NCBI RefSeq assembly: GCF_003946245.1
Contig: NZ_RHNN01000002.1
Location: 62,001-126,000 of the forward strand
Reading direction: 5' to 3'
DNA: 64,000 nt
DNA from: Levilactobacillus cerevisiae
GTDB taxonomy: Bacteria > Bacillota > Bacilli > Lactobacillales > Lactobacillaceae
The translations under genes were made by a program, and so were the position numbers. Of the stretch, positions 1,276 through 54,750 are shown in pieces (positions within the stretch are counted from its first letter, which is position 1; every line of letters starts with the position of its first letter). The notes under the pieces were generated by a model. That model was not told the origin of the DNA. It ran no database searches and saw nothing but the letters and a program-made list of their open reading frames with translations.

Positions 1276-1447
1276 GGGCTGGTGAAAACTGGGCCGGAAC
1301 GCTGTGGGCGGGCGCCTGGAGCCTAAGGGCGGTCTCCAGGCTTACTTTGAGTCGCTGAAGTGCGCGTCTCAAAGATACCAATTGCCTAAGCGGCCAAGCC
1401 CTCGCCGCTAAGGCAATTCCCACGGCTTAGCCCATTTTCACCAGCCC
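1276..1447 (+). repeat. Structured intergenic repeat R1 (type B)
   Basis: Outer arms GGGCTGGTGAAAA and TTTTCACCAGCCC close the element. Conserved GCTGTGGG (1301-1308) pairs with CCCACGGC (1419-1426). Inside are three hairpins: CCTGGAG/CTCCAGG (1315-1340), CTTTGAG/CTCAAAG (1345-1374), and AATTGCCT.AGCGG with its complement (1380-1418). It lies in the 884-1894 spacer, which holds no convincing gene. Confidence 0.8.
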
Positions 1448-1619
1448 TGCGGCTGACACTGGTTCGGGACGGACGGCTCAACCACAGCGCTGTGGTGGTG
1501 TTTTTTTGGCAACAGAGTTGTGGGAACGTGTGCCATTACCTCGGGGGTGGTGAAATCCGTGTTGGTCCGCTGTAGGTTGATACGTGGAGTCTAAACCGTT
1601 GTGGCATTCCGTTCCCGGC

Positions 1620-1705
1620 GGCGAGTCAAGGTGCCCTGCTGTGGGGCCGGCTCCAGCCTGAGGGGCGGTCTTCCACCTCGACACAGCTGGGCACCTTGAC
1701 TCGCC
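1620..1705 (+). repeat. Structured repeat R2 (type C, internally deleted)
   Basis: Seventeen-base perfect inverted arms (1620-1636 and 1689-1705, GGCGAGTCAAGGTGCCC and its complement) enclose the conserved GCTGTGGGG and GGGGCGGTC segments. Compared with R5, which shares arms, the central hairpins are missing. The junction sits at a TCGAC short repeat. Confidence 0.75.
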
Positions 1706-1757
1706 TCTGGTCACTTGACATGGATGTTCTCGGCTTCAATGGGTGGTAACTGTCGTT

Positions 1758-1852
1758 GGCTCATTTTCACCAGCCCTGCGGCTGACACTGGTTCGGGGCG
1801 GACGGCTCAACCACAATGCTGTGGTGGTATTTTTTGGCCACTGAGATTGTGG
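1758..1852 (+). repeat. Direct repeat of 1432-1525
   Basis: About 90 bases here repeat 1432-1525 with few changes, from the end of a type B element through a CCACAG..CTGTGG hairpin and a T-run. The two copies bracket R2, so R2 sits between duplicated ends of a type B element. Confidence 0.7.
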
Positions 1853-1894
1853 ACTGTACGACCATTTCAGCGGTGGGGTTGGGATTGCTCCAGC

Positions 1895-2329
1895 CTAAGC
1901 CTCATCCTCTAGCCGTTGCATTAGCGTGACGTCGTTTAAAATATCTTGAAGCGTAATCTTGGCCATTTTGGCCTCTGCCGCCGCTTGGATTTCGTTGTAG
2001 TAGTTGGTGAGCACCTTGGGGACCGTTTTGCCTACCGGGCATTTTTGGGACGTGTGGGCGTCTACGTTTAGGAGTGGGCCTTGGCTTGGCAACGTTGCGT
2101 AGATGTCGCGGAGGGTGATTTCTGCTGGGGTTTTGGCTAGGGCCAGTTGTGTCGGTCCGTGGGTCGGGGCTAGGAGGTTGCTGCGTTTTAAATTGGCCAT
2201 GATTTTGCGGACCAGGCTCGGGGACGTTTCCAGACTGCTGGCGATTTCCTGGCTGGTCAGCTTGTTGCCTTTGAAATAGGCGATGTAGACCAGGACGTGG
2301 ATGGTGTCGCTAAATTGTGTGTTCGCCAT
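1895..2329 (-). CDS. Rrf2 family transcriptional regulator
   Basis: A 144-residue protein with an N-terminal winged helix-turn-helix of Rrf2 type (SQEIASSLETSPSLVRKIMANL, about residues 26-47, quoted in part as LVRKIMANL) and a C-terminal helix. Only one cysteine (QKCPVG) is seen where iron-sulfur Rrf2 proteins such as IscR/NsrR carry three. It therefore resembles the cluster-free YwnA-like branch. Start taken at the ATG at 2329, preceded by AAGGAGG; the GTG seven codons upstream overlaps that site. Flanked on both sides by structured repeats and therefore transcriptionally isolated. Its target is not evident. Confidence 0.85.
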   Translation of the reverse strand: MANTQFSDTIHVLVYIAYFKGNKLTSQEIASSLETSPSLVRKIMANLKRSNLLAPTHGPTQLALAKTPAEITLRDIYATLPSQGPLLNVDAHTSQKCPVGKTVPKVLTNYYNEIQAAAEAKMAKITLQDILNDVTLMQRLEDEA

Positions 2330-2400
2330 GTTTTTTGGCGCCTCCTTCACTGTTTTGGGATTGTGTTAGTTCATGAGATTGTGTTGGGCTGGTGCCTCCA

Positions 2401-2569
2401 GGCCGTTCAAAATAGGACCGGAACGCTGGGGCGGACGCCTAAAGCCTGAGAGGCGGTCTTTAGGCTCGCTTTGAACCGAGTAGTTCACTCGTTTCAAAGT
2501 CGCCATTTACATCAGGACATGGTTCTTGTCCTGATGTAAATCCCCCGGCTTGGCCTATTTTGAACGGCC
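2401..2569 (+). repeat. Structured repeat R3 (type B)
   Basis: Sixteen-base perfect arms (2401-2416 GGCCGTTCAAAATAGG; 2554-2569 its complement) with three internal hairpins, CCTAAAG/CTTTAGG, a TTTGAA..TTCAAA stem, and a long TTTACATCAGGACA/TGTCCTGATGTAAA stem. The arm sequence differs completely from R1 and R9 but is self-complementary. Confidence 0.8.
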
Positions 2570-2664
2570 TTGCGGCGGATACTTGCGTGTTATGGCAACT
2601 GTTGTGGGAGATGAATCCGGTGCCGGTTTGTGGGATGTTGCCAGCATCACTGCTGGTGCTTCCA

Positions 2665-2835
2665 GGCCGTTCAAAATAGGATCGGAACGCTGGGGGTAGG
2701 ACGCCTAAAGCCTGGGAAGCGGTCTTTAGGCTCGCTTTGAACCGAGTAGTTCACTCGTTTCAAAGTCGCCATTTACATCAGGACATGGTTCTTGTCCTGA
2801 TGTAAATCCCCCGGCTTGACCCATTTAAATCGCCC
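2665..2835 (+). repeat. Structured repeat R4 (type B), tandem copy of R3
   Basis: Nearly identical to R3, offset by about 264 bases including the following spacer, so R3-R4 is a tandem duplication. The right arm (CCATTTAAATCGCCC) has drifted and no longer matches the left arm well. The 2330-3171 spacer contains only these repeats and the promoter of the next gene. Confidence 0.75.
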
Positions 2836-3085
2836 TTGCGGCGGATGCTTGCGCGTTGTGGCAACCGTTGTGGGAAATGAATCTGGCGCCTGTTTGTGGG
2901 GGTGGTCGTTGCTGGGGTGATTGCTGACGAGGTAGAAGGTATTAATTTAATGATGACCTGTCCAAACTGTCAGTTTTTCCAGAGAAAACAATTAATCCCA
3001 TCGTTCACTTCTGTATTATATTCTATAACACTTTGAGAGAAAAATCAGGTAAAACCGTTTGATAAAATTAAATTAAGCGAATTCA

Positions 3086-3114
3086 TTGACATTTTTCTTA
3101 AATAGTCGTATCTT
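3086..3114 (+). promoter_or_regulatory. Promoter of the F420-type oxidoreductase gene
   Basis: TTGACA (3086-3091), 17-base spacer, TATCTT (3109-3114), in A/T-rich DNA. CTTAAAAGTGTACTTAAAA over and after the -10 is a possible regulator site. Confidence 0.6.
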
Positions 3115-3171
3115 AAAAGTGTACTTAAAAATAATACAAAATAAATAAAAATACATCAGGGGGTCTGCATT

Positions 3172-3747
3172 ATGGCAGCAATTACAATTTTTGGTAAAGG
3201 TAACATGGGTCAAGCAATCGGTGACGTTTTCACTCAGGGTGGCAACCAGGTCAGTTTTATTGATTCCGGTGACGCCGTTGAAAATCTTGGGAGCATTGTC
3301 GTTCTGGCCGTTCCTTACAATGCCGCTTTGAGCATTGCCAAGGCCAACCAGGCCGCCTTAGCTGGCAAGGTGGTTATCGACATCACCAACCCACTTAATT
3401 TTGACACCTGGGACGAATTAGTCGTTCCCGCTGACAGTTCTGCGGCTGCACAAATCGCTGCGCTCTTGCCAGATTCAAAGGTGGTTAAGGCCTTCAACAC
3501 CACCTTTGCCGCCACCTTACAGAGTCGCAAGGTCAGCGACCAAGCTCAAACGACCGTGATGGCCGCTGGGGATGACGCCGCTGCTAAGCAGGAATTGGCT
3601 GACGCCTTGACCGACAGTGGCGTGGCCTTCGTTGACGCTGGTGCCTTGAAGCGCGCCCGTGAACTTGAGAGCTTTGGCTTCTTGCAAATGACTTTAGCGG
3701 CCAGCGAAAAGATTGGCTGGACCGGCAGCTTTGGCGTTTTGAAGTAA
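3172..3747 (+). CDS. NADPH-dependent F420 reductase-type oxidoreductase (Rossmann protein)
   Basis: A 191-residue cytoplasmic protein starting with a beta-alpha-beta nucleotide-binding fold; GKGNMG at residues 8-13 is the dinucleotide loop. The layout (short Rossmann domain, VLAVPY strand, DITNPLNF, KAFNTTFA) matches the F420-dependent NADP oxidoreductase family (NAD_binding F420_oxidored). Lactobacilli are not expected to make F420, so the hydride acceptor is unknown; redox-related functions are usually proposed for these genes. It is monocistronic, with GGGGG ribosome site before the ATG and a repeat-like terminator downstream. Confidence 0.85.
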   Translation: MAAITIFGKGNMGQAIGDVFTQGGNQVSFIDSGDAVENLGSIVVLAVPYNAALSIAKANQAALAGKVVIDITNPLNFDTWDELVVPADSSAAAQIAALLPDSKVVKAFNTTFAATLQSRKVSDQAQTTVMAAGDDAAAKQELADALTDSGVAFVDAGALKRARELESFGFLQMTLAASEKIGWTGSFGVLK

Positions 3748-3797
3748 GCTTAACGTGATCGGCAGATTATAGAAGAGATGTGTGACTGAGAAAGAGA

Positions 3798-3972
3798 GTG
3801 GGACAAAAGGCGGTTAGCTGGGGAGCATTAAGGCTGATAGCCGGATAATCCCGGGTTTGGATTATTTGGCTATCAGTTTTAAGCGGAGCCAGCTGCCTTT
3901 TGTCGCACGTTTCAACAATATAGTGTTGGAGATACAAGGTGAGTCTGGGGTTTTGTCCCAGACTTTTTTTGC
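3798..3972 (+). repeat. Long hairpin repeat, family II copy a, with terminator
   Basis: GACAAAAGGCGGTTAGCTGG pairs with CCAGCTGCCTTTTGTC; inside, CTGATAGCC pairs with GGCTATCAG and TAATCC with GGATTA. It ends in AGTCTGGG..CCCAGACT plus seven T, a good intrinsic terminator. Related copies occur at 37036-37156, 16847-16907 and 42137-42256. Confidence 0.75.
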
Positions 3973-4046
3973 ACCAAGATTGAATCGGCAAGCGTGATTT
4001 AACCTGATAGCCTGCGTATACTGTTGCTAGAATAGGAGGTGGCTTT

Positions 4047-4253
4047 GTGCCCAGAGAGAATCGAAAACGTTCGTCCGATAGGGAGCAAGACGCAGTTCCA
4101 CAGACCGAGCAAACTGGTGACGAAATCGGTTTAGACGTCACGGCAACAGAACAATTACACCGGGCGATTCAGGAAAAAATTGCCGCCGGAAGAGTACGAA
4201 CCATTCATTCTAGTCAAGAATTCAAGGAATGGTTACTGGACGATGAGGACTAA
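4047..4253 (+). CDS. Small acidic protein, possible orphan antitoxin
   Basis: A 68-residue hydrophilic protein from a GTG start; AGGAGG lies seven bases upstream, so translation is well supported. Charged N-terminus, a helical middle (TEQLHRAIQEKIAAG) and an acidic end (FKEWLLDDED). The tail resembles the C-terminal toxin-binding parts of small antitoxins, but no family is recognised. Its TAA overlaps an ATG (TAATG), the spacing typical of antitoxin-toxin pairs, yet the following frame gives only 11 codons. Function unknown. Confidence 0.55.
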   Translation: MPRENRKRSSDREQDAVPQTEQTGDEIGLDVTATEQLHRAIQEKIAAGRVRTIHSSQEFKEWLLDDED

Positions 4254-4286
4254 TGATTGCGCAAATTTTATATTTTAATCGCAAAT

Positions 4287-4343
4287 AAAAAGGCTTCAGA
4301 GTCTAACCCATCCTCATTTGGTAGGAAAGCTCTGAAGCCTTTT
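4287..4343. terminator. Bidirectional terminator between convergent genes
   Basis: AAAAAGGCTTCAGAG (4287-4301) pairs with CTCTGAAGCCTTTT (4330-4343). It serves the small ORF on the plus strand and the alcohol dehydrogenase on the minus strand. Confidence 0.85.
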
Positions 4344-4355
4344 AACAATTAAAAA

Positions 4356-5396
4356 TTAGTCCACAACAATCAACGACTTAATCGCTTCACGCTTCGTCAT
4401 AGCTTGGTAGGCGTCGTCAATGGCGTCCAGCTTGAATGACTTGGTGAAGACCTTGCCGGGGTGGATGTCACCGTCGAGCACGGCCTTCAACAGGGAATCC
4501 TTGTCGTAAGTCGTGACGGAGGCGGGGCCACCGGCGATGATAGTGTTGCTGTAGAAGGAACTGCTCATGTCCATCTTAGGTTCATGGGGCAAACCAACCC
4601 GGCCCACGATGGCACCTGGCCGGCCAACCTTCATGGCCGTGTCGTTAGACTGTTCCGTCCCGACACATTCGAGGACCGCGTCGGCACCGGAATTGTTGGT
4701 GAGCGCCATAACTTTGGCAACCGCGTCGTCACCCCGTTCGGCAACGATATCGGTCGCACCAAATTCAGTGGCCAGCTTTTGCCGGTCTTCGTGACGACTC
4801 ATGGCAATGATCCGCTTGGCACCACGCATTTGCGCGGCGATGACACCACAGAGACCCACGGCACCGTCACCGACGACGACCACGGTATCCCCAGCAGAAA
4901 CGTTGGCGACCCGCGCGGCGTGGTAACCGGTAGCCATGACGTCAGCTAACGTCAACAGGGACTTCAGCATTTCTTCACTGTAGTCTTCGGGCTTGCCAGG
5001 AATCTTGACCAGGGCCCACTCGCCGTGTTGGAAACGAATGTATTCGGCTTGAACGCCATTACTGAAATTGTCGGTATGGTTCTGGCAGTCGCCGTCAAAG
5101 CCGGCACGACAAGCGGCACAGTGGCCACAACCGTGAGTGAAGGGGGCAATGACGAAATCACCGGGTTGGACCGTGGTGATGTCACTGCCGACGGATTCGA
5201 CGATCCCGATGGCTTCGTGGCCGGTGTTTTCGGAATGCTTTTCCTTATCTTCTAAGCCACGGTAGGCCCAGAGGTCGGAGCCACAGACACAGGTCCGAAC
5301 AACGTGAATAATTACATCATCGGGTGCCTGTACCGTCGGCTTCTCGATGTCTTCAATGGCAACTTTTCCGGGTTCCATAAACATAGTGGTCTTCAT
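4356..5396 (-). CDS. Zinc-dependent alcohol dehydrogenase
   Basis: A 346-residue medium-chain dehydrogenase. The catalytic zinc site is seen as CVCGSD near residue 37 and GHE near residue 59. The structural zinc lobe is CGHCAACRAGFDGDC with four Cys. GDGAVG near residue 175 is the NAD(P) loop. Family knowledge: oxidises alcohols or reduces aldehydes/ketones in the cytoplasm; the substrate cannot be told from sequence. An AGGAGG-type site precedes the ATG. The promoter carries a catabolite-repression-like site, and a LysR gene lies upstream in the same direction. Confidence 0.92.
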   Translation of the reverse strand: MKTTMFMEPGKVAIEDIEKPTVQAPDDVIIHVVRTCVCGSDLWAYRGLEDKEKHSENTGHEAIGIVESVGSDITTVQPGDFVIAPFTHGCGHCAACRAGFDGDCQNHTDNFSNGVQAEYIRFQHGEWALVKIPGKPEDYSEEMLKSLLTLADVMATGYHAARVANVSAGDTVVVVGDGAVGLCGVIAAQMRGAKRIIAMSRHEDRQKLATEFGATDIVAERGDDAVAKVMALTNNSGADAVLECVGTEQSNDTAMKVGRPGAIVGRVGLPHEPKMDMSSSFYSNTIIAGGPASVTTYDKDSLLKAVLDGDIHPGKVFTKSFKLDAIDDAYQAMTKREAIKSLIVVD

Positions 5397-5427
5397 AAGC
5401 TAATTCCTCCTAAACATATCTGAGTAA

Positions 5428-5456
5428 ATTTTAAGCGTTTACACGGGGAATGTAAA
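5428..5456 (-). promoter_or_regulatory. Alcohol dehydrogenase promoter with cre-like site
   Basis: On the minus strand TTTACA (5451-5456), 17-base spacer and TAAAAT (5428-5433). TGTAAACGCTTAAA (5430-5443) matches the CcpA operator pattern at 12 of 14 positions and overlaps the -10, which would suit carbon repression. Confidence 0.55.
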
Positions 5457-5507
5457 GTAAGTGAACTTTCCAAAATGTGCGACAGAATAGGAAAGGACTT
5501 GCAAAAA

Positions 5508-6380
5508 TTAGTCCGGCCAAACGGCTTGTGCCTGCTTGAGAATGGGTGCCACCCGGGCCTTCTCAGCGGTTAAATAGCACGCGTAAATTGGCATCTGGGC
5601 CGCGTTGTCGGTGATTGGCAGGCAGACCCGTTTGTCGTCCGTAGCCAGTTGGGTGGTTAGAACCGGGTCAAACTGGGAAACGTTCGTAGAAAAGTAGGGA
5701 AAGTCCGAGAATTTGGTAATCTCCGTCAGGGCGTCGCGTTCCTCCTGGTAGAAAAATTTGGCGCCGGGGATGTTGTCTTGAATAATGGCGCGCCAAGGCC
5801 CGATGTCATTGAGCACCACAAAGCTGAGGTCGGCCAACTCGGCGAAGGTGATGGTGGCCTGGTTGGCCTGATACATAAACTGATTCAAGTTGACGGCCAA
5901 CCGTTCAGTGCCCAGACGTTCACTGGTGATGGCGGGTGCGGCCAGAGGATGATTCGTAAAAATGAGGGCGTCGTCGTTGGCCAACAGCGCTTGCGTCGGG
6001 TCGATAACATCAGCGGTCTCGGCAAGCTGAACGTTGGCCGGCAGTTGGGTGGCGAGGGATTGGAGCGCAATCAAGGGACCAGGCAGGGTGGCGCCCACCT
6101 GGAGGACACGCTGATTGCGGTCGAAATTTTGAATCCGGTCCACGGCGGCTTGATTGGCGGTAAGCAGGGCGCGGGCCTCAGTAGCAGCAAGCTTCCCGGT
6201 AGCAGTCAGACTGAGCCGATTGGGTTGACGGTCAAAGAGCTGGACGCCAAGGTCGCTCTCCAATTTTTGCATGCCCCGGGTAACGGTGGGCTGCGTCACG
6301 TTAAGCGTAGCGGCGGTCTTAGCCAGCGTCCCGGTCTGCGCAAAGGTGACGAGTTCTTCTAATAGGTAGTTGTCTAACAT
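5508..6380 (-). CDS. LysR family transcriptional regulator
   Basis: A 290-residue LysR protein. The N-terminal winged helix is clear (LVTFAQTGTLAKTAATLNVT then QPTVTRGMQKLESDLGVQLF, residues 10-50). An effector domain follows from about residue 90. It lies 111 bases upstream of the alcohol dehydrogenase in the same orientation, so it may control that gene, although LysR genes more often sit divergent from their targets. No effector can be inferred. Confidence 0.9.
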   Translation of the reverse strand: MLDNYLLEELVTFAQTGTLAKTAATLNVTQPTVTRGMQKLESDLGVQLFDRQPNRLSLTATGKLAATEARALLTANQAAVDRIQNFDRNQRVLQVGATLPGPLIALQSLATQLPANVQLAETADVIDPTQALLANDDALIFTNHPLAAPAITSERLGTERLAVNLNQFMYQANQATITFAELADLSFVVLNDIGPWRAIIQDNIPGAKFFYQEERDALTEITKFSDFPYFSTNVSQFDPVLTTQLATDDKRVCLPITDNAAQMPIYACYLTAEKARVAPILKQAQAVWPD

Positions 6381-6711
6381 GGGGTTGGTCTCCTTAGCGG
6401 TGAAAAAAATTTGAGGTACCTTGAAGTGCCTTCTTTTAAAGTGATACGAAATTGCGTATGGTAGTCTACGTAGTGATGAAATATAAGTACAACTGGTCCG
6501 GCTTATCGTTCGCCAATTACGGAGGATAAGTGGTGGCTATTCAGTTTTAAACAGGTTGATGCCATAGCTTAGAACGCTTACGACCGCAGTTTCTAGCAGT
6601 CACAGATGACAATTTCTGAATCGGTTTGAGATAATAGATAACAGTTTCTGGATGATGAGAATGAACTGGTTTTAGCTGTAGAAACTCAGATTATCGATGT
6701 GAGTGACCAGA

Positions 6712-6881
6712 GGCGAGTCAAGGTGACCAGCTGTGTCGATGGCATTGGCCGAGTGATTTTCTCGGCTTAGGCCGTGGGACGACCTTGGAAACTCACGGGT
6801 TTCAGTGAGGTTTCAAGTCGAGGCGGAAGACCGCCCCTCAGGCTGGAGCCGGGTCCCACAGCAGGGCACCTTGAACTCGCC
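6712..6881 (-). repeat. Structured repeat R5 (type C)
   Basis: Core reads on the minus strand. Outer arms GGCGAGTCAAGGTG (left) and CACCTTGAACTCGCC (right) enclose GCTGTGGGA, GGGGCGGTC, a TTGAAACC/GGTTTCAA-like stem and CGTCCCACGGCC. It is the full-length relative of the deleted copy R2. Confidence 0.75.
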
Positions 6882-6970
6882 GCCGGAAACGGAATTCACC
6901 ACATCCAGGTTAAACAGACCATGCACACCAAGTTCACTGATTGGACGGGCTAAACTAGTGTCAGCCGCAG

Positions 6971-7138
6971 GGTTGGTGAAAATGAGCCAAGCCGTGGGAA
7001 TTGCCTTAGTGACGGTCTTGGTCGCTTAGGCAATTGGTATCTTTGAGACGCGTAACTCAGCGGCTCAAAGTAAGTCTGGAGACCGCCCTTCGGCTCCAGG
7101 CGGCCGCCCACCGCGATCCGGTCTCATTTTCACCGACC
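6971..7138 (-). repeat. Structured repeat R6 (type B)
   Basis: Minus-strand core. Outer arms GGTTGGTGAAAATGAG and CTCATTTTCACCGACC; internal CTCCAGG/CCTGGAG-like, CTTTGAG/CTCAAAG and AATTGCCT/AGGCAATT stems, closest to R1. The 6381-7263 spacer otherwise holds only promoter DNA. Confidence 0.78.
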
Positions 7139-7157
7139 CGGAGGCGAACCGAAACAA

Positions 7158-7182
7158 CTAGTATACACACATCGTATACTAG
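7158..7182. promoter_or_regulatory. Dyad operator and -10 of the aldo/keto reductase operon
   Basis: CTAGTATAC (7158-7166) and GTATACTAG (7174-7182) form a perfect nine-base dyad with a seven-base centre. TATACT (7175-7180) can be the -10; no good -35 is present, so an activator or a derepressed regulator may act here. Confidence 0.5.
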
Positions 7183-7263
7183 CATGAACAAGTGGTAATT
7201 TTCAACGGATTGGTTTGGGACTATAGTAGACTCATCAACCAAGCGAAAGGAAAGATGAGCGAT

Positions 7264-8133
7264 ATGACTAACGTCCCAACAATTAAATTGAACAATGGTG
7301 TGGAGATGCCACAGTTAGGCTTCGGCGTCTTCCAAGTCCCTGATTTAGCAGAGTGCGAGGCTGCCGTGCTCGCTGCGCTAAAGGCCGGCTACCGGTTACT
7401 GGATACCGCCACAGCCTACCGGAACGAGGAAGCCGTTGGCCGGGCCATTCAAAAGAGTGGCGTGCCCCGCGACGAAATCTTTGTGACCTCCAAGCTGTGG
7501 GTCTCCGACTTCACCTATGACCGCGCGAAGAAGGGGATTGACGCCTCGCTCCAGCGGTTAGGCTTGGACTACCTAGACCTGTACCTGCTGCACCAACCCT
7601 ATGGCGACACGATGGGCGCTTGGCGGGCACTGGAAGAGGCGTATCAGGCTGGCAAAATTCGGGCGATTGGCGTTTCCAATTTCTACGCGGATCAATTGAA
7701 GAACTTGGAATTGACCATGAACGTGAAACCCGTTGTCAACCAAATCGAAGTGAACCCCTGGTACCAGCAGCCGACTGAGGTGGCATTCAACCAGAGCGAC
7801 GATGTGCGGGTCGAGGCCTGGGCACCATTCGCTGAGGGCCAACACGGCGTCTTCACCGACCCAGCCATCACGGCAATTGCCCAGGCCCACGGCAAGACCA
7901 CCGGCCAAGTCATTCTACGGTGGCTGCTGCAGCGCGGAATTACCGTGATTCCGAAGTCCGTTCACCGGGAGCGGATGGTAGAGAACATGGACGTCTTTGA
8001 CTTCGAGCTGAGCCCGGCAGAAATGCAGGCGATGGCGGCTTTAGACCGGCAAGAAAGCCAGTTCTTTGACCACCGTGATCCGGTCACGATTGAACAAATT
8101 TTCGGTTCTAGTTTAAAACAATTAAAGGAGTAA
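7264..8133 (+). CDS. Aldo/keto reductase
   Basis: About 290 residues, a TIM-barrel NADPH-dependent reductase of carbonyl compounds. Visible family signatures are the DTATAYRNEEAVG segment carrying the catalytic Asp/Tyr, TSKLW with the Lys, LLHQP with the His, GVSNF, and the phosphate-binding IPKSVHRERM near the C-terminus. Two starts are possible: ATG 7255 is only three bases from GGA, while ATG 7264 aligns with the start of the downstream paralogue; I chose 7264. It forms an operon with the next gene (six-base gap). Substrate unknown; 2,5-diketogluconate-type reductases are the nearest class. Confidence 0.9.
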   Translation: MTNVPTIKLNNGVEMPQLGFGVFQVPDLAECEAAVLAALKAGYRLLDTATAYRNEEAVGRAIQKSGVPRDEIFVTSKLWVSDFTYDRAKKGIDASLQRLGLDYLDLYLLHQPYGDTMGAWRALEEAYQAGKIRAIGVSNFYADQLKNLELTMNVKPVVNQIEVNPWYQQPTEVAFNQSDDVRVEAWAPFAEGQHGVFTDPAITAIAQAHGKTTGQVILRWLLQRGITVIPKSVHRERMVENMDVFDFELSPAEMQAMAALDRQESQFFDHRDPVTIEQIFGSSLKQLKE

Positions 8134-11910: not shown

Positions 11911-12020
11911 GGTTCGGCCATCAACTTAACACTAAAGGTTGAAAGTGCAAGAAGACTAAAGCGGCCCAGCTAACAGGGATTCAATCCACAAAATTAGTGG
12001 TTAATTTGCCACCTGCGGCT

Positions 12021-12178
12021 GCCAGAGATTCCGTCTGCTGTGGGGAGCACCTGCGGCCTGAGAAGCGGTCCTCCGGCTCGGTTTGAAGCCTGACAAAAAT
12101 CGTCAGTCTCCAAACACGTCCCACGGTGTAAGCTGGTTCCCAGCTAACACCGTCGACACAGCTGTCTCCATCTCTGTC
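12021..12178 (+). repeat. Structured repeat R7 (type A)
   Basis: CAGAGAT/ATCTCTG and CTGCTGTG/CACAGC stems close the element; inside are GCGGTC, a CTGAC..GTCAG hairpin within a GTTTGAA../..CAAAC frame, and CGTCCCACGG. It faces R8 head-to-head. The 11911-12695 spacer holds R7, R8 and promoter DNA only. Confidence 0.72.
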
Positions 12179-12270
12179 CTCCTCCGGTTAGGATTGTTCT
12201 TCAACAGGATGTTGCCGTAACCATCGCTGACCTGGCAACGTTTGTCTACCGTAATTGCGTACAGTCTAGG

Positions 12271-12423
12271 TAGGCTCAGCCGTGGGATTTTCCCAGTGCT
12301 CTTCTTGGAAAATGGCAACTTTGAAACGCGGTCTGTGCGGTTCAAAGCGAGCTGGCAGACCGCTTTCCAGGTTGCCTGCGTCCTACCCACAGCGTACCCA
12401 CAGCGTTCCGGCCAAAATTTGGT
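12271..12423 (-). repeat. Structured repeat R8 (type B)
   Basis: Minus-strand core with TTTGAA-type stem and GCGGTC. It contains a local tandem duplication (TACCCACAGCG twice in a row near 12383-12405) in the conserved CTGTGGG segment. Forms a composite with R7 like that at 50153-50573. Confidence 0.7.
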
Positions 12424-12695
12424 GAACGGTAAGCCAGCAGGTTTAGAAAACGTTGCTAATGTCCAGCGTTATACGCCTACTTTGTAGCGCGCGTTACGCC
12501 CCAAGTTTAAGTTCCAACTTACCTCAACATAATAAAAAGGCGACTGGGTGAAAACTCGGCCGCGTTTTTGCGCGTTCACAATTGATTAGGTCAAGCGCAT
12601 AACTGCCAAATTAGTTCCCCAGCAAATTAGTTGAAGTCTGCTAAATTTGTTATAATTATCTTCATGAGATTGCGGTTCAAGCAAGTGGAGGAAAA

Positions 12696-33285: not shown

Positions 33286-33289
33286 ACCA

Positions 33290-33376
33290 ATAAAAGCCCG
33301 CCAGCCGCGGGCTTTTTACATACCCACACGCAGACACGAGATTCCCGGTTCTAAGTAGTTGCGCTCCAAAACTAGA
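33290..33376 (+). repeat. 87-base direct repeat, copy a, with terminator
   Basis: Begins with AAAGCCCG..CGGGCTTTTT terminator hairpin and ends with GTTCTAAGTAGTTGCG..CCAAAACTAGA. The second copy is at 36121-36207 in the same orientation, about 2.8 kb away, with only a few changes. Confidence 0.85.
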
Positions 33377-36078: not shown

Positions 36079-36120
36079 GACCGTGTGCTAGAGGTTAGCG
36101 GTTCTACAAATAAATCAGCA

Positions 36121-36207
36121 ATAAAAGCCCGCCAGCCGCGGGCTTTTTACATACCCACATGCAGCCACAAAATTCCCGGTTCTAAGTAGTTGCGCCCCAA
36201 AACTAGA
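36121..36207 (+). repeat. 87-base direct repeat, copy b, with terminator
   Basis: Second copy of 33290-33376, including the AAAGCCCG..CGGGCTTTTT terminator and the GTTCTAAGTAGTTGCG end. The two copies bracket the LysR-YbhB-cyclophilin-NmrA block. Confidence 0.85.
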
Positions 36208-48096: not shown

Positions 48097-48128
48097 ACTT
48101 TTTAAGCTAGTCGTTGCCCGTGCCTGCC

Positions 48129-48289
48129 GGGCTGTTGAAAATGAGACCGGAACGCTGTGGGGAGGACGCCTAAAACCTGTGAAGCGGTCTTTAGGCTCGC
48201 TTTGAACCGCGAAGTTCGCGTTTCAAAGACGCCATTCTGTGAGAAAAACACTCGCAGAATCCCACGGCTGGGCTCATTTTCAACAGCCC
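48129..48289 (+). repeat. Structured repeat R9 (type B)
   Basis: Seventeen-base perfect arms (48129-48145 and 48273-48289, GGGCTGTTGAAAATGAG and complement). Internal stems: CCTAAA/TTTAGG, TTTGAA..CGCGAA/TTCGCG..TTCAAA, and ATTCTG.GAG/CTCGCAGAAT. Begins about 33 bases after the carrier stop codon. Confidence 0.8.
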
Positions 48290-48356
48290 TCTCGGCTGAG
48301 GTTGTTGTTCTGGCGGCGTTGTAGCCCCGGTTTCGTGGGGTGGCCGCGTCTACCAG

Positions 48357-48518
48357 AGCTGCTGAAGTGAGATTGAAATACTGTGGGGAGGACGCTGGAA
48401 GCCTGTAAGGCGGTCTTCCAGCTCGCTTTGAACCTCGGAACCCACGAGTTTCAAAGGCGCCATTCTACGAGAAGAACACTCGCAGAATCCCACGGCTGGG
48501 CTCATTTTTCACCGGCCC
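48357..48518 (+). repeat. Structured repeat R10 (type B), tandem with R9
   Basis: Same order as R9; P2 is GCTGGAAG/CTTCCAGC here instead of CCTAAA/TTTAGG, a compensated change. The left outer arm has decayed while the right one (CTCATTTTTCACCGGCCC) remains. Confidence 0.75.
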
Positions 48519-48694
48519 TCTCGGCTGAGATTGGTGTTGTGGCGGCGTTGTAGCCCCGATTTGGTGGGCGGCCGCCACGAACATTGGCGTTTTCGACCAG
48601 TGTGTATGTTCCAGACTAAGATGATTAAGAACTTCATCATCTTGTCGCTTAGCAGACGTCATTGTTAGGCAACAAGCAAATTAAGAATTACATG

Positions 48695-48737: not shown

Positions 48738-48840
48738 TTAGTCTTAAAAAACGGCTAAGGGTTAAAAACTAAGTTGTCGGCGTAACCTGCTACATAGTAG
48801 GGTATAGCGCTGGATATTGGCAACATGGTCTAAATCTGTC

Positions 48841-48925
48841 GACTCGCTATGAAACGTACGAACCACGTTTTAAAATACCATTTCCAAGTAAACTACTTGC
48901 AGAATTCTACGGCTAAGGCTAAATC
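48841..48925 (+). repeat. Degenerate structured repeat R11 (type B fragment)
   Basis: ACTCGCTATGAAACG..CGTTTTAAAAT, CCATTTCCAAGT..ACTTGCAGAAT and CTACGGCTAAGGCTAAA correspond to the right half of R14. The left half is missing. Confidence 0.6.
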
Positions 48926-49035
48926 GGATTTGCTCACGCCTACTTAGACTTTGCCAATTATGGTGAACAAACGTTGCCAGTTCAGCGATGGTCACGTCAA
49001 TGTCATGTTGAAGAACAATCCTAACCGGAGGAGGA

Positions 49036-49196
49036 CAGAGATGGAGGCAGCTGTGTCGACGACGTTAGCTGAGCGGTCTTCTCAGGTTACGTCGTGGGAC
49101 GCGTTTGGAGCCTGTCGTTTTGGGACAGGCTTCAAACCGAGCCGGAGGACCGTACCTCAGGCCGCAGGCGGTCCCCACAGCAGACGGAATTTCTGG
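49036..49196 (-). repeat. Structured repeat R12 (type A)
   Basis: Minus-strand core: GCTGTGGGGACCGCC, CGGTC, GGCTCGGTTTGAAGCCTGTC..GACAGGCTCCAAACG and GTCCCACGACGT. Closing stems AGAGAT/ATTTCT and CACAGC/GCTGTG. Lies head-to-head with R11. Confidence 0.75.
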
Positions 49197-49369
49197 CAGC
49201 CGCAGGTGGCAATTTTTGACTAATTTTGGGAACTGAATTCCTATTAGCTGGGCTATTTTAGGTTCTATTGGACTTTCAAGTATTTTGAAAATGGCTAGTT
49301 TGGCCGCTGTGTGTGGTATACTTACCATTCATGAGCTTTAATTTCGAGATATTCTAGGGGGAAACCATC

Positions 49370-50038
49370 TTGGCACTGACTACCGCCAAAAACTTTTTAC
49401 TTTTAACCGAACGGATTGATGATAAGCCGATGCTGCGGACGCGTTTTACGGCCCAGGCATACTTCTTACTGGCGACGCTGTTAGACCTGTTGGACCAAGG
49501 GGTGCTGCAGGTTGACGGCGACCGCATCGTCGTGCCCGACGTCGATCGGTTTGACCAATTACCACAGTATTTGAACGCGCTCCGGATTCGTTTGACCAGT
49601 GATTTAATGCAAAATGACCAGTTGAAAACGGCCTTGAAATTAGTGACGAGCTGGGATATCGTCAATGCCGTTTACGACGGGATCGGTGCAGAGACGCTGA
49701 CTGACGGGACCACGGAGCGAGTGTTGTTTCAAAATAACTTGAAGCCCCACGTGATTTACGAGCCCAAGGACGCCAGTCGCCAAGCGGTCATTGCCGACCT
49801 CAAGGCGCAGATTGCTTCCGGCCAGCCGAACCACCCGACGATTAATCTATACGCCGTGTTGGCCCAAACAGGCGCGTTGAAGTGGGTCTTTGGTGAGGTG
49901 GGGCTGGACAAGCTACAGTCGCAATTTGAAACGGCCACCAGCGTGGATCCGTACGCGCAGACCGTTCAACTGATGACAACGACGGCCGGGGAAATCATCC
50001 AGTCCAAGAAATTTGAGATGGATAGCTGGTTGAGCTAA
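49370..50038 (+). CDS. GPP34/GOLPH3-like protein (tentative)
   Basis: 222 residues, cytoplasmic, all-helical. The start (LTTAKNFLLLTERIDDKPML) and AYFLLATLLDLLDQGVLQVDGDRIVVPD follow the pattern of the bacterial GPP34 family, related to the eukaryotic phosphoinositide-binding GOLPH3. The match is by pattern only and could be wrong. TTG start after AGGGGG. The gene stands alone between two inverted copies of the composite structured repeat. Confidence 0.5.
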   Translation: MALTTAKNFLLLTERIDDKPMLRTRFTAQAYFLLATLLDLLDQGVLQVDGDRIVVPDVDRFDQLPQYLNALRIRLTSDLMQNDQLKTALKLVTSWDIVNAVYDGIGAETLTDGTTERVLFQNNLKPHVIYEPKDASRQAVIADLKAQIASGQPNHPTINLYAVLAQTGALKWVFGEVGLDKLQSQFETATSVDPYAQTVQLMTTTAGEIIQSKKFEMDSWLS

Positions 50039-50152
50039 TTTATGCAAGATTAAATAGACGATGACCTCTTCTTGGAAGGGGCTGTCGTCTTTTTTGACTT
50101 CTGAAGAATCCAGCTAGCGATGTTAAATTGTCCGGAATTGTCACCTGCGGCT

Positions 50153-50314
50153 GCCAGAGATTCCGGCTGCTGTGGGGACCGCCTGCGGTCTGAGGGGCGG
50201 TCCTCCGGCTTGGTTTGAAGCCTGTCCCAAACCGACAGTCTCCAAACGCGTCCCACGACGTAACCTGAGAAGGCCGCTCAGCTAACGTCGTCGACACAGC
50301 TGCCTCCATCTCTG
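50153..50314 (+). repeat. Structured repeat R13 (type A)
   Basis: Plus-strand core with GCTGTGGGGACCGCC, GGGGCGGTC, GTTTGAAGCCTGTC..GACAG, and ACGACGTAACC../..CTAACGTCGT. Closing AGAGAT/ATCTCT. Nearly a mirror copy of R12. Confidence 0.75.
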
Positions 50315-50423
50315 TCCTCCTCCGGTTATGACTGGTTCTTTACCATGACATGGATGTGATCATTGCTGGATTGGCAACGTTTGTCCAGCAGAATTGGTCA
50401 TTGTCTATGTAGGCGTGAGTGAG

Positions 50424-50573
50424 CTAAATTTAGGCTCAGCCGTGGAATTTTCCAAGTGGGTTAACTTGGAAAATGGCGACTTTGAAACGCGGTTCGTGCG
50501 GTTCAAAGCGAGCTGGCAGACCGTTTCCCAGGCTGGCGGCGTCCTCCCCACAGCGTTCCGGCCTAAATTTGGC
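50424..50573 (-). repeat. Structured repeat R14 (type B)
   Basis: Minus-strand core; outer arm AAATTTAGGC with GCCTAAATTT, P4 CCATTTTCCAAGT/ACTTGGAAAAT. Head-to-head with R13, as R7-R8. Confidence 0.75.
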
Positions 50574-50899
50574 GAACGGTAAGCCGGCAGGTTTAGACAG
50601 TGTTGCCGCATTGTTTAGGCTAACTAATAGCCATATATGCAGTGCACTCAGAAAAACGATGATTTTGCAAGCCAGAGCTCCGAACAAATATTTTTTACAG
50701 TAAAAACCGTGGTCATTTATCATCATGTGAGTGGGCTACGATTGTTGTCGTGTCAGGTTTTGACCGCTGATGACACTGAGGCGAATCGCGTTGGACGGTG
50801 AACTAATTAACTGCCAGATAAATTAAAACAAACTTGTTTTGGACACCAGACAGACCTATGATGAACTTGTGAAGGAATTATCAAAAGGAGATGGGTGGC

Positions 50900-52099
50900 A
50901 TGTCATTAACGATTGCTGCTTTACGGGAAGCGCCCGGGGAAAACCGGGTTGCGCTCTCACCCGAAGTGGTACGGAAGTTGGTTAAAGGTGAGTTTCAAGT
51001 CTTGATTGAAGCGGGTGCCGGCGAACGGTCCTTCTACCCGGATGCCGCGTTTGAAAAGGCCGGGGCTAAAATTAGCGACCGCGCCGCTGCCATTAAGGAT
51101 GCCGACGTGATTGCAACCATTGGTCAACCCGGTGCCGACGTGGTGGATCAGCTGACGGCTGGGCAAACGTTATTAGGCTTGCTACAACCGTTAACCGATT
51201 TGGACTACGTGAAGGAATTGGCAACCAAGAAAGTGAATGCGCTTGCATTTGAACTGTTGCCACGGACCGTTTCACGGGCCCAGACCATGGATGTCTTGAG
51301 TTCTCAGGCCAGTGTGGCGGGCTACAAGGCGGCGCTGTTGGCCGCAGATCAATTTTCACGTTATCTGCCAATGATGATTACGGCCGCCGGGACCGCTAAG
51401 CCAACCAAGGTGTTGGTTCTTGGGACTGGGGTCGCTGGACTGCAAGCCATTGGGACCGCCAAACGGTTAGGTGCCATGGTTTCCGGCTACGACATTCGGC
51501 CAGCCTCACGTGGTGAAGTGGAATCTTTGGGGGCAACGTTCCTGACGACTTCCGTTTCAGCGACTGGTGAAGGCGGGTATGCCCGGGCATTGACGCCAGA
51601 AGAAACCGCGCAACAACAGGCTGAACTGGCCGAATTCATTGCGCAAAATGATGTCATCATCACGACCGCGCAGGTTCCTGGTCGGCGGCCACCCATACTG
51701 GTCACCCAGAAGTCTGTGGATGCGGCTAAAGCGGGTACCTTGTTTATTGATTTGGCAGCGAGCGAACTCGGCGGCAACGTCGCGGGCTCTCAGCCAGAAA
51801 AGACCGTTACCACGAAGCAACAGGCTCAGATTGTGGGGGCCGGTGACATGGCGAGTCAATTGCCAGCGTCCGCTTCCGACATGTTTGCCAAGAACGTCCA
51901 AGCCGTTTTAAACGCAATTGTTCAAGATGGTAAATTGGTTCTGGACGTTGACGACGAGGTGGTTGGCGAGTTGCTGGCGACCTACCAAGGCGACATTATC
52001 AGTGGTCGGGAACGTGAGGCCATGAAGTTACCACCACGCGAACCGGCAAAACCAGCGGAAGCATCCGCAGAATCAACTGAATCCAAAGGAGTTGATTAG
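50900..52099 (+). CDS. pntAA: NAD(P) transhydrogenase subunit alpha, part 1 (domain I)
   Basis: 400 residues. N-terminal alanine dehydrogenase/PNT fold: REAPGENRVALSPEVVRKL, then GTGVAGLQAIGTAKRLGA as NAD(H) loop, and GEGGYARALTPE as the mobile loop that closes on NAD. It forms domain I of the proton-translocating transhydrogenase, which couples hydride transfer between NADH and NADP+ to proton flow. AAAGGAG lies before ATG 50900. Split alpha subunit, followed two bases on by part 2. Confidence 0.95.
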   Translation: MSLTIAALREAPGENRVALSPEVVRKLVKGEFQVLIEAGAGERSFYPDAAFEKAGAKISDRAAAIKDADVIATIGQPGADVVDQLTAGQTLLGLLQPLTDLDYVKELATKKVNALAFELLPRTVSRAQTMDVLSSQASVAGYKAALLAADQFSRYLPMMITAAGTAKPTKVLVLGTGVAGLQAIGTAKRLGAMVSGYDIRPASRGEVESLGATFLTTSVSATGEGGYARALTPEETAQQQAELAEFIAQNDVIITTAQVPGRRPPILVTQKSVDAAKAGTLFIDLAASELGGNVAGSQPEKTVTTKQQAQIVGAGDMASQLPASASDMFAKNVQAVLNAIVQDGKLVLDVDDEVVGELLATYQGDIISGREREAMKLPPREPAKPAEASAESTESKGVD

Positions 52100-52101
52100 G
52101 C

Positions 52102-52416
52102 ATGAGTCAGGAATTATTTACAAATTTAGCTATTTTCGTCCTCAGTCTATTGGTCGGGTTTGAAGTCATGAGTAAGATTCCCGCGACCCTGCAAACGCCA
52201 ATGATGTCCGGTGCGAACGCTATTCACGGGGTCGTTGTAGTGGGGGCCTTCGTGATTGCTGCGGAAGCCAACAGCACGCTATTTTACATTCTCGCCTTTC
52301 TGGGTGCCTTCTTTGCTGCAGTCAACGTGGCTGGTGGTTACACCGTGACCGACCGGATGTTGGGCATGTTTGACCGGAAACCAGCTGCGAAGAAGGAGGA
52401 GGCTGATCAGAAATGA
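52102..52416 (+). CDS. pntAB: NAD(P) transhydrogenase subunit alpha, part 2 (membrane)
   Basis: 104 residues with three membrane helices (LAIFVLSLLVGFEVMSKIP; GANAIHGVVVVGAFVIA; ILAFLGAFFAAVNVAGGYTVT). TPMMSGANAIHG is the family signature. It supplies the first half of the proton channel (domain II). Located between pntA1 and pntB with overlap of four bases to pntB. Confidence 0.95.
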   Translation: MSQELFTNLAIFVLSLLVGFEVMSKIPATLQTPMMSGANAIHGVVVVGAFVIAAEANSTLFYILAFLGAFFAAVNVAGGYTVTDRMLGMFDRKPAAKKEEADQK

Positions 52417-53828
52417 GTACGCTACAAACAATTTCGTCCTTAATCTATCTGGTCTCGGCTATCTGCTACGTGCTGGGTGTCCACATGATGCGGTCGCCTA
52501 AGACGGCACGACAGGGTAACCGCCTCTCTGCAGTGGGGATGTTCCTTGCTGTCATTACGATTATTGTGACGATTATCATTGAAGGTAAAATTGATGCGAT
52601 TGGCTGGGTCGTTTTGCTGGTTGGCCTGGCACTCGGGATTCTGTACGGGTTCGTCAAGGCGCGCAAGGTGCCAATGACCGACGTGCCCCAGTTGGTTAGC
52701 CTCTTCAACGCCGTTGGTGGTGGGGCTGCCGCTGTGATTGGGATTTTCGATTACCTGTTAAAGGGTGATGGGGCCAGCCTCAGCGTGGCATTCTCCCTAC
52801 CAGTTCTGCTGGACGTTGTGATTGGGGGGATTACCTTCTCCGGATCACTGATTGCAACGGGTAAATTATCCGGTCACGTTTCCGGGAAGCCAATTGAAAT
52901 CCCCGGTTCACGAATTTTAAACATCCTCGTGGTGCTGTTGATCCTCGTGGCCGCCTGGTTCATGATTGCATCCCCAACCAACGTTTGGTTCGTCACGTTG
53001 GCCTTAGTCATGAGTTTAGCGTTCGGGCTGTTGATGACCTTGCCAATTGGTGGGGCCGACATGCCGGTCGTTGTTTCTCTGTTAAACGCCTTTACTGGCC
53101 TGGCCGTCGCCTTTGCCGGGTTCGTTATCAACAACCAAGTCCTGATTATCGCCGGGGCTTTGGTTGGGGCAGCTGGGACCATTTTGACCTTACAAATGGC
53201 TGATGCCATGAACCGGTCCGTCGCTAACATTTTGGCTGGTGGCTTTGGGACTGGCGATAGTGATACTGGTGCGGCCGCAGCGGACGTCCCGGTCGACGTG
53301 AAGGAAACGTCTGCCGACGATATTGGTCTGCAACTGGCCTACGCCCACAGCGTGATGATCGTGCCTGGCTACGGGTTAGCCGCAGCGCAAGCGCAACATG
53401 AAGTCGCCGAGTTGGCCAAGGTTTTGACCGACCAAGGAATTAGCGTCAACTACGCCATTCACCCGGTTGCTGGGCGGATGCCTGGCCACATGAACGTTTT
53501 GCTGGCCGACGTCAACGTGCCTTACGAGCAAATGAAGCAGTTAGACGATGCCAACCCAATGTTTGAAAGCACCGACGTTTCCTTGGTCATCGGGGCCAAC
53601 GATGTCACCAATCCGTTAGCTCGGGAAAGCGGCAACGCTATTTCTGGGATGCCGATTCTGGACGTCGATAAATCCAAGTCCGTGGTTGTCATCAAGCGTT
53701 CCATGAGTACCGGGTACGCTGGGGTGCAGAACCCACTGTTTGCACTGGATAACACGCAAATGTTCTTCTCCGACGCCAAGAAGGGTCTCCAGGAGATTGT
53801 GGCGGCTACGAAACAATACTTGGAATAG
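52413..53828 (+). CDS. pntB: NAD(P) transhydrogenase subunit beta
   Basis: 471 residues. About nine membrane helices to residue 265, then the NADP(H)-binding domain III, with VMIVPGYGLAAAQAQHEV, HPVAGRMPGHMNVLLA, GANDVTNPLAR and KRSMSTGYAGVQNPLF, all diagnostic. Completes the transhydrogenase; overlaps pntA2 by four bases (ATGA), so translational coupling is likely. The complex balances NADPH supply. A structured repeat starts about 35 bases after its stop. Confidence 0.96.
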   Translation: MSTLQTISSLIYLVSAICYVLGVHMMRSPKTARQGNRLSAVGMFLAVITIIVTIIIEGKIDAIGWVVLLVGLALGILYGFVKARKVPMTDVPQLVSLFNAVGGGAAAVIGIFDYLLKGDGASLSVAFSLPVLLDVVIGGITFSGSLIATGKLSGHVSGKPIEIPGSRILNILVVLLILVAAWFMIASPTNVWFVTLALVMSLAFGLLMTLPIGGADMPVVVSLLNAFTGLAVAFAGFVINNQVLIIAGALVGAAGTILTLQMADAMNRSVANILAGGFGTGDSDTGAAAADVPVDVKETSADDIGLQLAYAHSVMIVPGYGLAAAQAQHEVAELAKVLTDQGISVNYAIHPVAGRMPGHMNVLLADVNVPYEQMKQLDDANPMFESTDVSLVIGANDVTNPLARESGNAISGMPILDVDKSKSVVVIKRSMSTGYAGVQNPLFALDNTQMFFSDAKKGLQEIVAATKQYLE

Positions 53829-53863
53829 TGTTTGGATTGTTTAGGCATGGACGCCTGCGGCCT

Positions 53864-54018
53864 CCAGGACTTCGCCTGCTGTGGGGTCGGTTCCAGCCTG
53901 CGGGGCGGGCTTCCACCTCAACTTTGAGCCGAAGTTCGCGTCTCAAAGGTTGCCCCAGTCTGTAAGGCCGAGAATTTCACTCGGTCTAACAGCCTCGACA
54001 CAGCTGGCTACGTCCTGG
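53864..54018 (+). repeat. Structured repeat R15 (type C)
   Basis: CCAGGAC/GTCCTGG and CTGCTGTG/CACAGC close it. Inside: GGGCGGGC, CTTTGAG..CGAA/TTCG..CTCAAAG and GGCCGAG..CTCGGTC hairpins. Confidence 0.78.
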
Positions 54019-54143
54019 ATTCCTCCGGCTCCTGATTGTGGGTCTGACTCGACGTTGTGGTTAGCCGCAATCTGCTGGTGATCCTTGGGCTGGCTTCTGT
54101 GCTTGCGGGTACTGGGATATTGCTGACGGGGTTGCTGAAGCCT

Positions 54144-54292
54144 TGACGCCTGCTGTGGGGTCGGTTCCAGCCTGCGGGGCGGGCTTCCACCTCAACTTTG
54201 AGCCGAAGTTCGCGTCTCAAAGGTTGCCCCAGGCTGTAAGGCCGAGAATATCACTCGGTCTAACAGCCTCGACACAGCTGGCTACGTCCTGG
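54144..54292 (+). repeat. Structured repeat R16 (type C), tandem copy of R15
   Basis: Almost identical to R15 over about 165 bases, offset by 276 bases. The outermost left arm has diverged. The 53829-54912 spacer holds R15-R17 and one terminator, no gene. Confidence 0.78.
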
Positions 54293-54426
54293 ATTCCTCC
54301 GGCTCCTGATTGCGGGTCTTACGCAACGTTGGCTTGAGCTTTCGGTATCCATTACTTCTGCGGTAGAGGTGTCGCGGACTGATCACTAAGCTTTGAACAG
54401 ATCTAGCATTAAAACAGTTATCAATA

Positions 54427-54477
54427 ACGCGTCACCAGGTCATTCTCTTTTGCTGAGAATAACCTGGTGACGCGTTT
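54427..54477. terminator. Strong orphan terminator hairpin
   Basis: AACGCGTCACCAGGT..ATTCTC pairs with GAGAAT.ACCTGGTGACGCGTT, then TTG. No gene ends nearby; it may block read-through from the pnt operon. Confidence 0.75.
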
Positions 54478-54594
54478 TGTTGTGTGTTTAGGTTGCGACA
54501 GCTACGCAGACTGATAGTAATGATGTTGAACGGTTACCTGTCCAGCGATGGTTACGGCAATATATTGATGAAGAACAATTGTAACCGGAGGAGG

Positions 54595-54750
54595 CCAGAG
54601 GTGGAGACAGCTGTGACAACGGTGTTAGCTGGGAACCAGCTTACAGCGTGGGACGTGTTTGAAGACTGACGAATTTTGCCGGGCTTCAAACCGAGCCGGA
54701 GGACCGTTCCTCAGGCAGCAGGCGGTCCCCATAGCAGACGGAATCTCTGG
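54595..54750 (-). repeat. Structured repeat R17 (type A)
   Basis: Minus-strand core: CTATGGGGACCGCC, CGGTC, GGCTCGGTTTGAAGCC, CACGCTGTAAGCTGG../CCAGC.AACACCGT and CACAGCTG. Closing CCAGAG/CTCTGG. Present without a type B partner beside it. Confidence 0.7.

Follow-up and report, generated by a model that had tools for sequence, protein, structure and literature searches.

Among described bacterial repeats, the nearest kind to the elements analysed here appears to be the bcr1-bcr3 group of Bacillus cereus, which the accessible part of PMC3446304 presents as intergenic repeats of a Gram-positive chromosome, similar to miniature inverted-repeat transposable elements (MITEs) in structure and function and often located in untranslated regions (UTRs); in the accessible part of PMC2267715 the bcr1 model has 167 bases and 31 copies are tabulated. 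Our elements are a family of structured repeats in a stretch of 64,000 nucleotides from Levilactobacillus cerevisiae (assembly GCF_003946245.1, contig NZ_RHNN01000002.1, positions 62,001 to 126,000), which as a whole we call the window. Like the bcr repeats, they are dispersed, intergenic and present or absent between relatives; unlike bcr1-bcr3, which belong to the Bacillus cereus group, they occupy another host family and reach far more copies, a distinction drawn from description and not from sequence. For bcr repeats, the accessible parts of PMC3446304 and PMC2267715 mention neither core classes that can be exchanged nor an outer stem peculiar to each copy, both features of the elements here.

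Repetitive extragenic palindromes (REPs) and bacterial interspersed mosaic elements (BIMEs) are extragenic palindromes in more than 100 copies per genome, often forming composites of alternating orientation (PMC2817692, in excerpt), and REPs associated with the transposases termed RAYTs (REP-associated tyrosine transposases) are palindromes of 20-40 bases with a GTAG or CGTC tag (PMC3733652, in excerpt). The elements here differ: they span about 200 bases, form a branched fold of several helices (no search was made for the tag), and are not tracked by Y1 transposase genes. BOX and RUP of Streptococcus pneumoniae are high-copy intergenic repeats with model sizes of 84 and 63, and Lac-1 of L. 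johnsonii is a genic family of that species (both in the accessible part of PMC2267715). With BOX and RUP our elements share being high-copy intergenic repeats in a member of the Lactobacillales. The architecture of BOX and RUP differs from that of the elements here (the sequences were not compared). Group II introns, retrons, HEARO and integron attC sites were compared with the elements on their general features alone.

The structured RNA motifs Lacto-rpoB, Lacto-usp, Lacto-int, the L17 downstream element and asd come from the same order as the host (PMC2864571, in excerpt). No Rfam family reaches its cut-off in the window: there were 0 matches at the gathering cut-off, and five loci searched together with their relatives to E 10 gave six matches (E 1 to 5.4), all below the cut-offs. 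Lacto-int has no Rfam number in the table of the excerpt of PMC2864571 and hence lies outside this comparison. An earlier note on this stretch, made from its letters alone, had named no RNA class for the elements, and on Rfam this holds. Full-text searches of the open literature, which leaves most subscription papers outside its coverage, yielded no publication that by its listing describes the repeat family, and it is apparently undescribed.

We hypothesize, with slightly more confidence than doubt, that the family is an interspersed repeat superfamily that is old, non-autonomous and mobile in origin, that pairing within its hairpin DNA is selected, and that its cores are replaceable where a copy already resides.

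Results

Two related classes of branched hairpin

A profile search of the window (E <=1e-4) gave 17 matches, where the earlier note had presented a single family of at least 17 elements. The elements prove to be of two related classes, nine of class A and eight of class B, with conserved segments in a common order, and many of the copies sit in composites. These 17 matches are partly obtained by construction, because the search profiles were built from genome-copy alignments that include the window copies; free of that weakness is the whole-genome count of the pattern GCTGTGGGGN{5,30}GCGGTC, which has 77 matches, of which two overlap, as compared with 1 for the reversed pattern. The arm pairs quoted in the note are present in the sequence: outer arms GTTGAAAATGAG/CTCATTTTCAAC at 48134-48145/48273-48284, CGTTCAAAATAGG/CCTATTTTGAACG in the copy at 2394-2576 and GGTGAAAA/TTTTCACC in the copy at 1270-1453, as well as all three of its P2 pairs. 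With these, the pattern count and the covariation described below, the family is real.

One copy comprises about 200 bases that fold as a single long branched hairpin. From the outside inwards it has a copy-specific stem P0, then P1, a second stem that varies, and finally the core, which is made up of P1b, P2, P3 and P4. Conserved within the core are CTGTGGG, the CC..GCGGT loop of P2, CTCG and a CCC strand. In class A, GCTGTGGG pairs with CCCACGGC and encloses the hairpins P2, P3 and P4, as in this copy:

48129..48289, plus strand: class A, well preserved (sequence, alignments, profile match, and fold of 48121-48300 at -91.3 kcal/mol)
48129-48145/48273-48289: P1
48154-48161/48261-48268: P1b, GCTGTGGG with CCCACGGC
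48168-48174/48190-48196: P2, loop ACCTGTGAAGCGGTC
48200-48206/48222-48228: P3
48234-48243/48251-48260: P4

We read class B as having GCTGTG facing CACAGC and GGG facing CCC; its consensus in the cross-genus alignment pairs TGTG with CACA and GGG with CCC, and places P4 between the CCC and CACA strands. Class B units are sharply bounded, from GTTCCCGG to GGTCACTNACA, in differing surroundings. P1 has about 10 or more pairs that vary between copies and is bordered by, for example, CCTGCGG / CCTCCGG or GCCTCCGG / TGCGGC. P0 was assessed in 117 copies, where 27 of the flank pairs beat 99% of shuffled flanks of the same class and 40 beat 95%. Most of the long P0 stems that were read have no T run after them (no count was made), and for this reason we rejected the idea that P0 is a pre-existing terminator.

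Some units stand alone and some in tandem, while others are joined in composites of about 425-445 bases, in which an A unit meets a B unit that faces inward, as at 12007-12432 and 50139-50581. Near-complete A/B composites account for 11 of 14 aligned sequences, one of which carries about 300 extra bases in mid-element. The ends of the composites face inward, yet they are not identical.

Concerted change of stem arms

Three alignments were used: A3, of 29 class A copies from one genome; A4, of 53 class B copies; and A5, of 31 class B copies drawn from some ten genomes. The claim of the earlier note that the stems vary in concert is borne out in both classes. Cells changed on both sides of a pair number 138 in A3, against 39.2 ± 5.0 after shuffling and at most 17 in slid controls; in A5 they number 250, against 73.8 ± 8.3 and at most 29, with two-sided changes in 32 of 42 pairs. 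The count of further pair types was unexceptional: of 500 shuffles, 52 and 192 reached it.

In RNA helices, G·U usually accounts for several percent of the pairs. The cells of A5 comprise 1171 Watson-Crick pairs, 16 G·U, 33 A·C and 39 others, and those of A3 include 43 G·U against 15 A·C, 28 of the 43 lying in one T·G pair.

Constraint on resident copies

The fold was followed at sites shared between two sister species, using 52 of 57 same-class pairs (five were dropped by filters on model coverage or flank length) and stems defined from other copies. At the 38 sites where the cores diverge by at most 12%, divergence is 3.1% in stems, 10.9% in the unpaired core and 19.7% in the flanks. The ratio of stem to unpaired divergence is 0.284 (95% confidence interval 0.217-0.362, loci resampled), and may retain some bias from a structure derived from conserved copies and from looser alignment of the loops. 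Since stems diverge less than the unpaired core, the fold is constrained in resident copies, and seems to be of importance at the site a copy occupies and not during spread alone. A version with 16 comparisons, also with stems taken from other copies, gave 3.1%, 11.2% and 19.6%; we rely on the largest sample over the smaller ones. The 14 more divergent pairs have values of 0.222 for stems and 0.283 for loops with 76 two-sided changes, as would be expected if whole cores had been replaced.

Changed pairs at the 38 sites went to or from G·U in 15 cases, to or from A·C in 15 and to or from another mismatch in 11. This equality argues for Watson-Crick pairing in DNA, or for a strand-symmetric constraint, against sense-strand RNA as the sole selected form. 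Of the selection for fold, in RNA or in DNA, that the earlier note had proposed, the selection is supported by the stem constraint, and the RNA branch loses ground because G·U does not exceed A·C.

Two-sided Watson-Crick changes number 13 at these sites, against about 1.4 expected if the two sides changed independently (an arithmetic estimate); some of the 13 are perhaps short conversion tracts. The concerted arm changes could in principle be the product of mutational template switching between the arms of a hairpin and not of selection, as might be suggested by two-sided changes that are nearly all Watson-Crick and by the rarity of G·U intermediates in A3 and A5. Such switching should, however, yield two-sided changes about as often as reversions, and only 13 are seen at 38 loci despite the low stem divergence; we regard this explanation as very improbable.

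Class changes, absences and insertions between species

Copies were looked up in both directions between sister species, over 322 kb of genome G014 and 328 kb of genome G016. Of the 73 copies of G014, 57 had a G016 counterpart that agreed in class and strand, 10 had one of the other class and 3 had none, with 3 unplaced; two of the three absent copies are low-scoring fragments. For the 79 copies of G016, the counterpart in G014 was of the same class and strand in 56 cases, of another class or strand in 15 and missing in 5, again with 3 unplaced. Three of these five absences are among four differing sites that had been read in an initial comparison covering about 160 kb; three of those four resemble deletion derivatives of hairpins, and one is a clean present/absent site.

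At nine sites a class A copy of one species corresponds, reciprocally, to a class B copy of its sister species, and the strand is kept at all nine. The non-reciprocal class differences are unmatched neighbours; the pair at G014 51007 / G016 52764 is not reciprocal and stands outside the nine. Both flanks align at seven of the nine sites and one flank at two, for one of which a global alignment recovers both. In the chimeras that were read, the B unit occupies the place of the P2-P4 of A. At the locus G014 136725 / G016 137475 an unusual outer stem, TTTAAAATGG/CCATTTTAAA, is kept around an interior that is B in one species and A in the other, and the locus 39730/41075 likewise keeps its own outer stem, GGTAAAAACTG/ATTTTTACC, in both species despite the class change.

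These two locus-specific stems, like the chimeras, bear on a more specific possibility, in which the outer stem would be a resident docking hairpin and the core a cassette, the A/B swap being guided by structure instead of flanking homology and the folded DNA being what the cell or a putative enzyme recognises. We offer it tentatively and think it rather unlikely, having lowered our estimate a little because absences proved as common as class changes.

Among 25 ortholog comparisons, 22 had usable flanks, and in six of these the core was at least 5 points less similar than the flanks. In all six a paralog of the same genome is closer to at least one partner; in three the closest paralog is the tandem neighbour, so that ordinary gene conversion suffices for those three.

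From dcuC to the next gene there are 1277 bases here, with inserts (two copies and one remnant of class A, and one class B copy), against 265 in three sister species. Downstream of pntB, B copies stand at the matching place in four species; the pntA-pntB genes of G014, G016 and G029 are 93.5-93.8% identical.

As separate observations on this region, the B unit in the p222-pntA interval has the opposite strand in G029 (L147) relative to G014 (L146) and G016 (L148), and the match to pntA orthologs (L096-L104) crosses one TGA in 9 of the 25 genus genomes matched, perhaps reflecting a split or two-frame pntA.

Position relative to genes

Any open reading frame with 150 or more codons counted as a gene (by a longest-frame rule, not annotation), and gaps of at least 220 bases were considered. 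At 135 stop-side gene ends, the 5' edge of a copy is nearest in 53, 27 of them within 50 bases, and the 3' edge in 18, none under 145 bases. The 151 start-side ends have a 5' edge nearest in 41 (7 within 50 bases) and a 3' edge in 22 (none under 226). By these counts the 5' edge faces genes at either end, more tightly at stop codons. Of the sense copies, 39 lie no farther than 100 bases from a stop; among these, a terminator-like hairpin precedes the copy in 3 and is found only after it in 18; at comparable stops without a copy, such a hairpin lies within 100 bases in 24 of 87. Class A copies, with tandem copies collapsed, number 30 on the plus strand and 16 on the minus strand. This skew, seen in a test for a replication-strand bias, agrees with the strand bias of the genes.

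The placement at stop codons keeps a role as RNA open, and the elements might be domesticated 3'-UTR elements, folded mRNA tails kept for protection of the 3' end or for tuning of decay. The crowding of 5' edges at stops and the hairpins that follow sense copies would fit this explanation, as would the constraint on stems of resident copies and one T·G pair of the class A P1b that is kept in 28 of 29 copies; in the accessible part of PMC3446304, moreover, bcr3 in a B. cereus transcript goes with a longer half-life. Against it, G·U shows no excess over A·C, either in resident copies (15 against 15) or across genera (A5), and the 41 start-side ends with a 5' edge nearest mean that orientation is tied to the element itself and not to the transcript alone. 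We consider an RNA of this type doubtful.

Copy number and host range

Covariance models built from 29 class A and 53 class B sequences, and run against the genome and its relatives as the earlier note had proposed, find at least 150 genomic matches for either class; among the matches listed, the weakest have E values of 3.2e-29 (A) and 7.4e-28 (B). In 435,766 bases, made up of the window and contiguous stretches, there are 133 matches, 117 of which span 110 or more positions of the model, 55 of them in class A and 62 in class B. By extrapolation, the whole genome of 3.375 Mb would hold roughly 900 copies, about 5% of the sequence at 200 bases each.

The A model matches 33 of 35 genomes of the genus, that of the window included, and under stricter filters 91 of 397 genomes of the family, in 10 of 40 genera. 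The B model matches 18 of 395 genomes of the order, every one within the same family. Plasmids and phages gave no match for the window elements, and plasmids none for the L. hammesii element; the element of genome G342 has short partial matches in three plasmids, one of which is an element that immediately follows the stop codon of a gene for an S8 peptidase on a Levilactobacillus brevis plasmid.

Two further matches were noted. In G320 (genus g38; L166-L171) the best class A E value is 1.2e-32, against 2e-12 at best in the other listed congeners, and horizontal transfer of these copies is possible. An exact class A motif lies on contig DAHUXL010000238.1 (L194) of a metagenome-assembled Rhodanobacter genome, possibly a misbinned lactobacillus contig.

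Candidate mobilising genes

The earlier note had considered a known insertion sequence or MITE family whose transposase would explain the arms, and three gene families were tried, none of which fits. Y1 transposases occur in 23 of 34 genus genomes; none is found in the element-carrying genomes G029, G003, G018, G017, G020, G026 and G002, and G011 has five Y1 matches and no element match. Y1 was rejected as the mobiliser for its absence from the element-rich G029, G003 and G018 and its presence in the element-free G011. IS110, in 8 of 34 genomes, does not track the family, and reverse transcriptase, in 10 of 34, is lacking in the genome studied here; both were likewise rejected.

Composites with inward-facing A and B ends, together with the insertion-like differences between species, would suit MITEs that bear long degenerate terminal repeats and that a known family of insertion sequences mobilises in trans. 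The genes of the three families do not track the elements, however, and the window elements are without a plasmid or phage match; we judge such an origin improbable.

Copies in the window

The remaining copies in the window are as follows.

48357..48520, plus strand: class A, second in tandem with 48129-48289 (alignment, profile match)
48835..48924, plus strand: class A remnant, decayed and reduced, facing the B copy 49017-49211 (sequence, profile match)
1270..1453, plus strand: class A (sequence, alignment, profile match, fold)
2394..2576, plus strand: class A (sequence, alignment, profile match, fold)
2658..2840, plus strand: class A, tandem partner of 2394-2576 (sequence, alignment, profile match)
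6964..7145, minus strand: class A (alignment, profile match)
12262..12432, minus strand: class A half of the composite 12007-12432 (alignment)
50418..50584, minus strand: class A half of the composite 50139-50581 (sequence, alignment)
1608..1715, plus strand: class B, a reduced copy without P3 and P4, outer arms 1615-1643/1682-1710 (sequence), flanked by A-like remnants at 1538-1575 and 1756-1840
6703..6893, minus strand: class B (profile match, fold)
12007..12196, plus strand: class B half of the composite 12007-12432
49017..49211, minus strand: class B, facing the decayed A remnant 48835-48924 (sequence)
50139..50332, plus strand: class B half of the composite 50139-50581 (sequence)
53850..54037, plus strand: class B directly after the pntB stop (fold; B copy at the matching place in three sister species)
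54135..54310, plus strand: class B, tandem partner of 53850-54037, 97% over 185 bases
54578..54763, minus strand: class B

At 12385-12404 on the minus strand, two GCTGTGGGT segments 11 bases apart within one class A copy constitute a short tandem duplication. Separately, an 89-base repeat at 33288-33376 and 36119-36207, 94% identical and 2.8 kb apart, has a GC-rich hairpin and a T run, and resembles a duplicated terminator region.

Discussion

The earlier note had left the choice between a mobile non-autonomous element and a structured RNA family; a structured dispersed repeat of mobile origin is the part we retain, and the RNA branch does not hold as it stands. It did not mention the two classes, the composites, the outermost stem that differs from copy to copy, the placement behind stop codons or the class changes at fixed sites. 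In the reading that we favour, the selected feature would be Watson-Crick pairing in hairpin DNA rather than sense-strand RNA, and the class A and class B cores would be alternatives. Besides insertion and deletion, a resident hairpin may have its core replaced, either through gene conversion or template exchange involving folded copies or through the action of a putative enzyme.

Several results weigh against this reading. Absences, eight over both directions, are about as many as the nine class changes, and for that reason exchange is not clearly the leading process. A target-site duplication was not shown, the only clean present/absent site being ambiguous at the level of single bases and no systematic search having been made, and no mobilising gene was found among the three families tried (Y1, IS110, reverse transcriptase). 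In 13 comparisons of at least 88% identity, with the fold taken from one partner, there are 2 two-sided changes against 1.65 expected, and the version with 16 comparisons has 11 G·U against 4 A·C among its 15 wobble-type changes. A4 gives 125 G·U against 13 A·C, 110 of the 125 lying in the column pairs 16-39, 45-121 and 40-126, and because of these three A4 reads otherwise on wobble. We take 16-39 and 45-121 to be wrong pairings made by the automatic structure, and 40-126 (G40 with C or T126) may be real wobble. The alignments are thus not in full agreement, and the case against wobble leans mainly on A5 and the resident copies. Finally, constraint on resident stems is unexpected for a purely selfish repeat.

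Provided that the whole genome has the density sampled in 436 kb, the elements make up about 5% of it, and at least 10 genera of a bacterial family used in food carry them. In resident copies their stems diverge more slowly than the loops, without a clear preference for wobble, a combination unusual for an RNA and not anticipated for a selfish repeat, and their cores change class at fixed places. Through both features the elements offer a direct test, in harmless laboratory lactobacilli, of the way in which structured repeats spread in bacteria and of what keeps them there.

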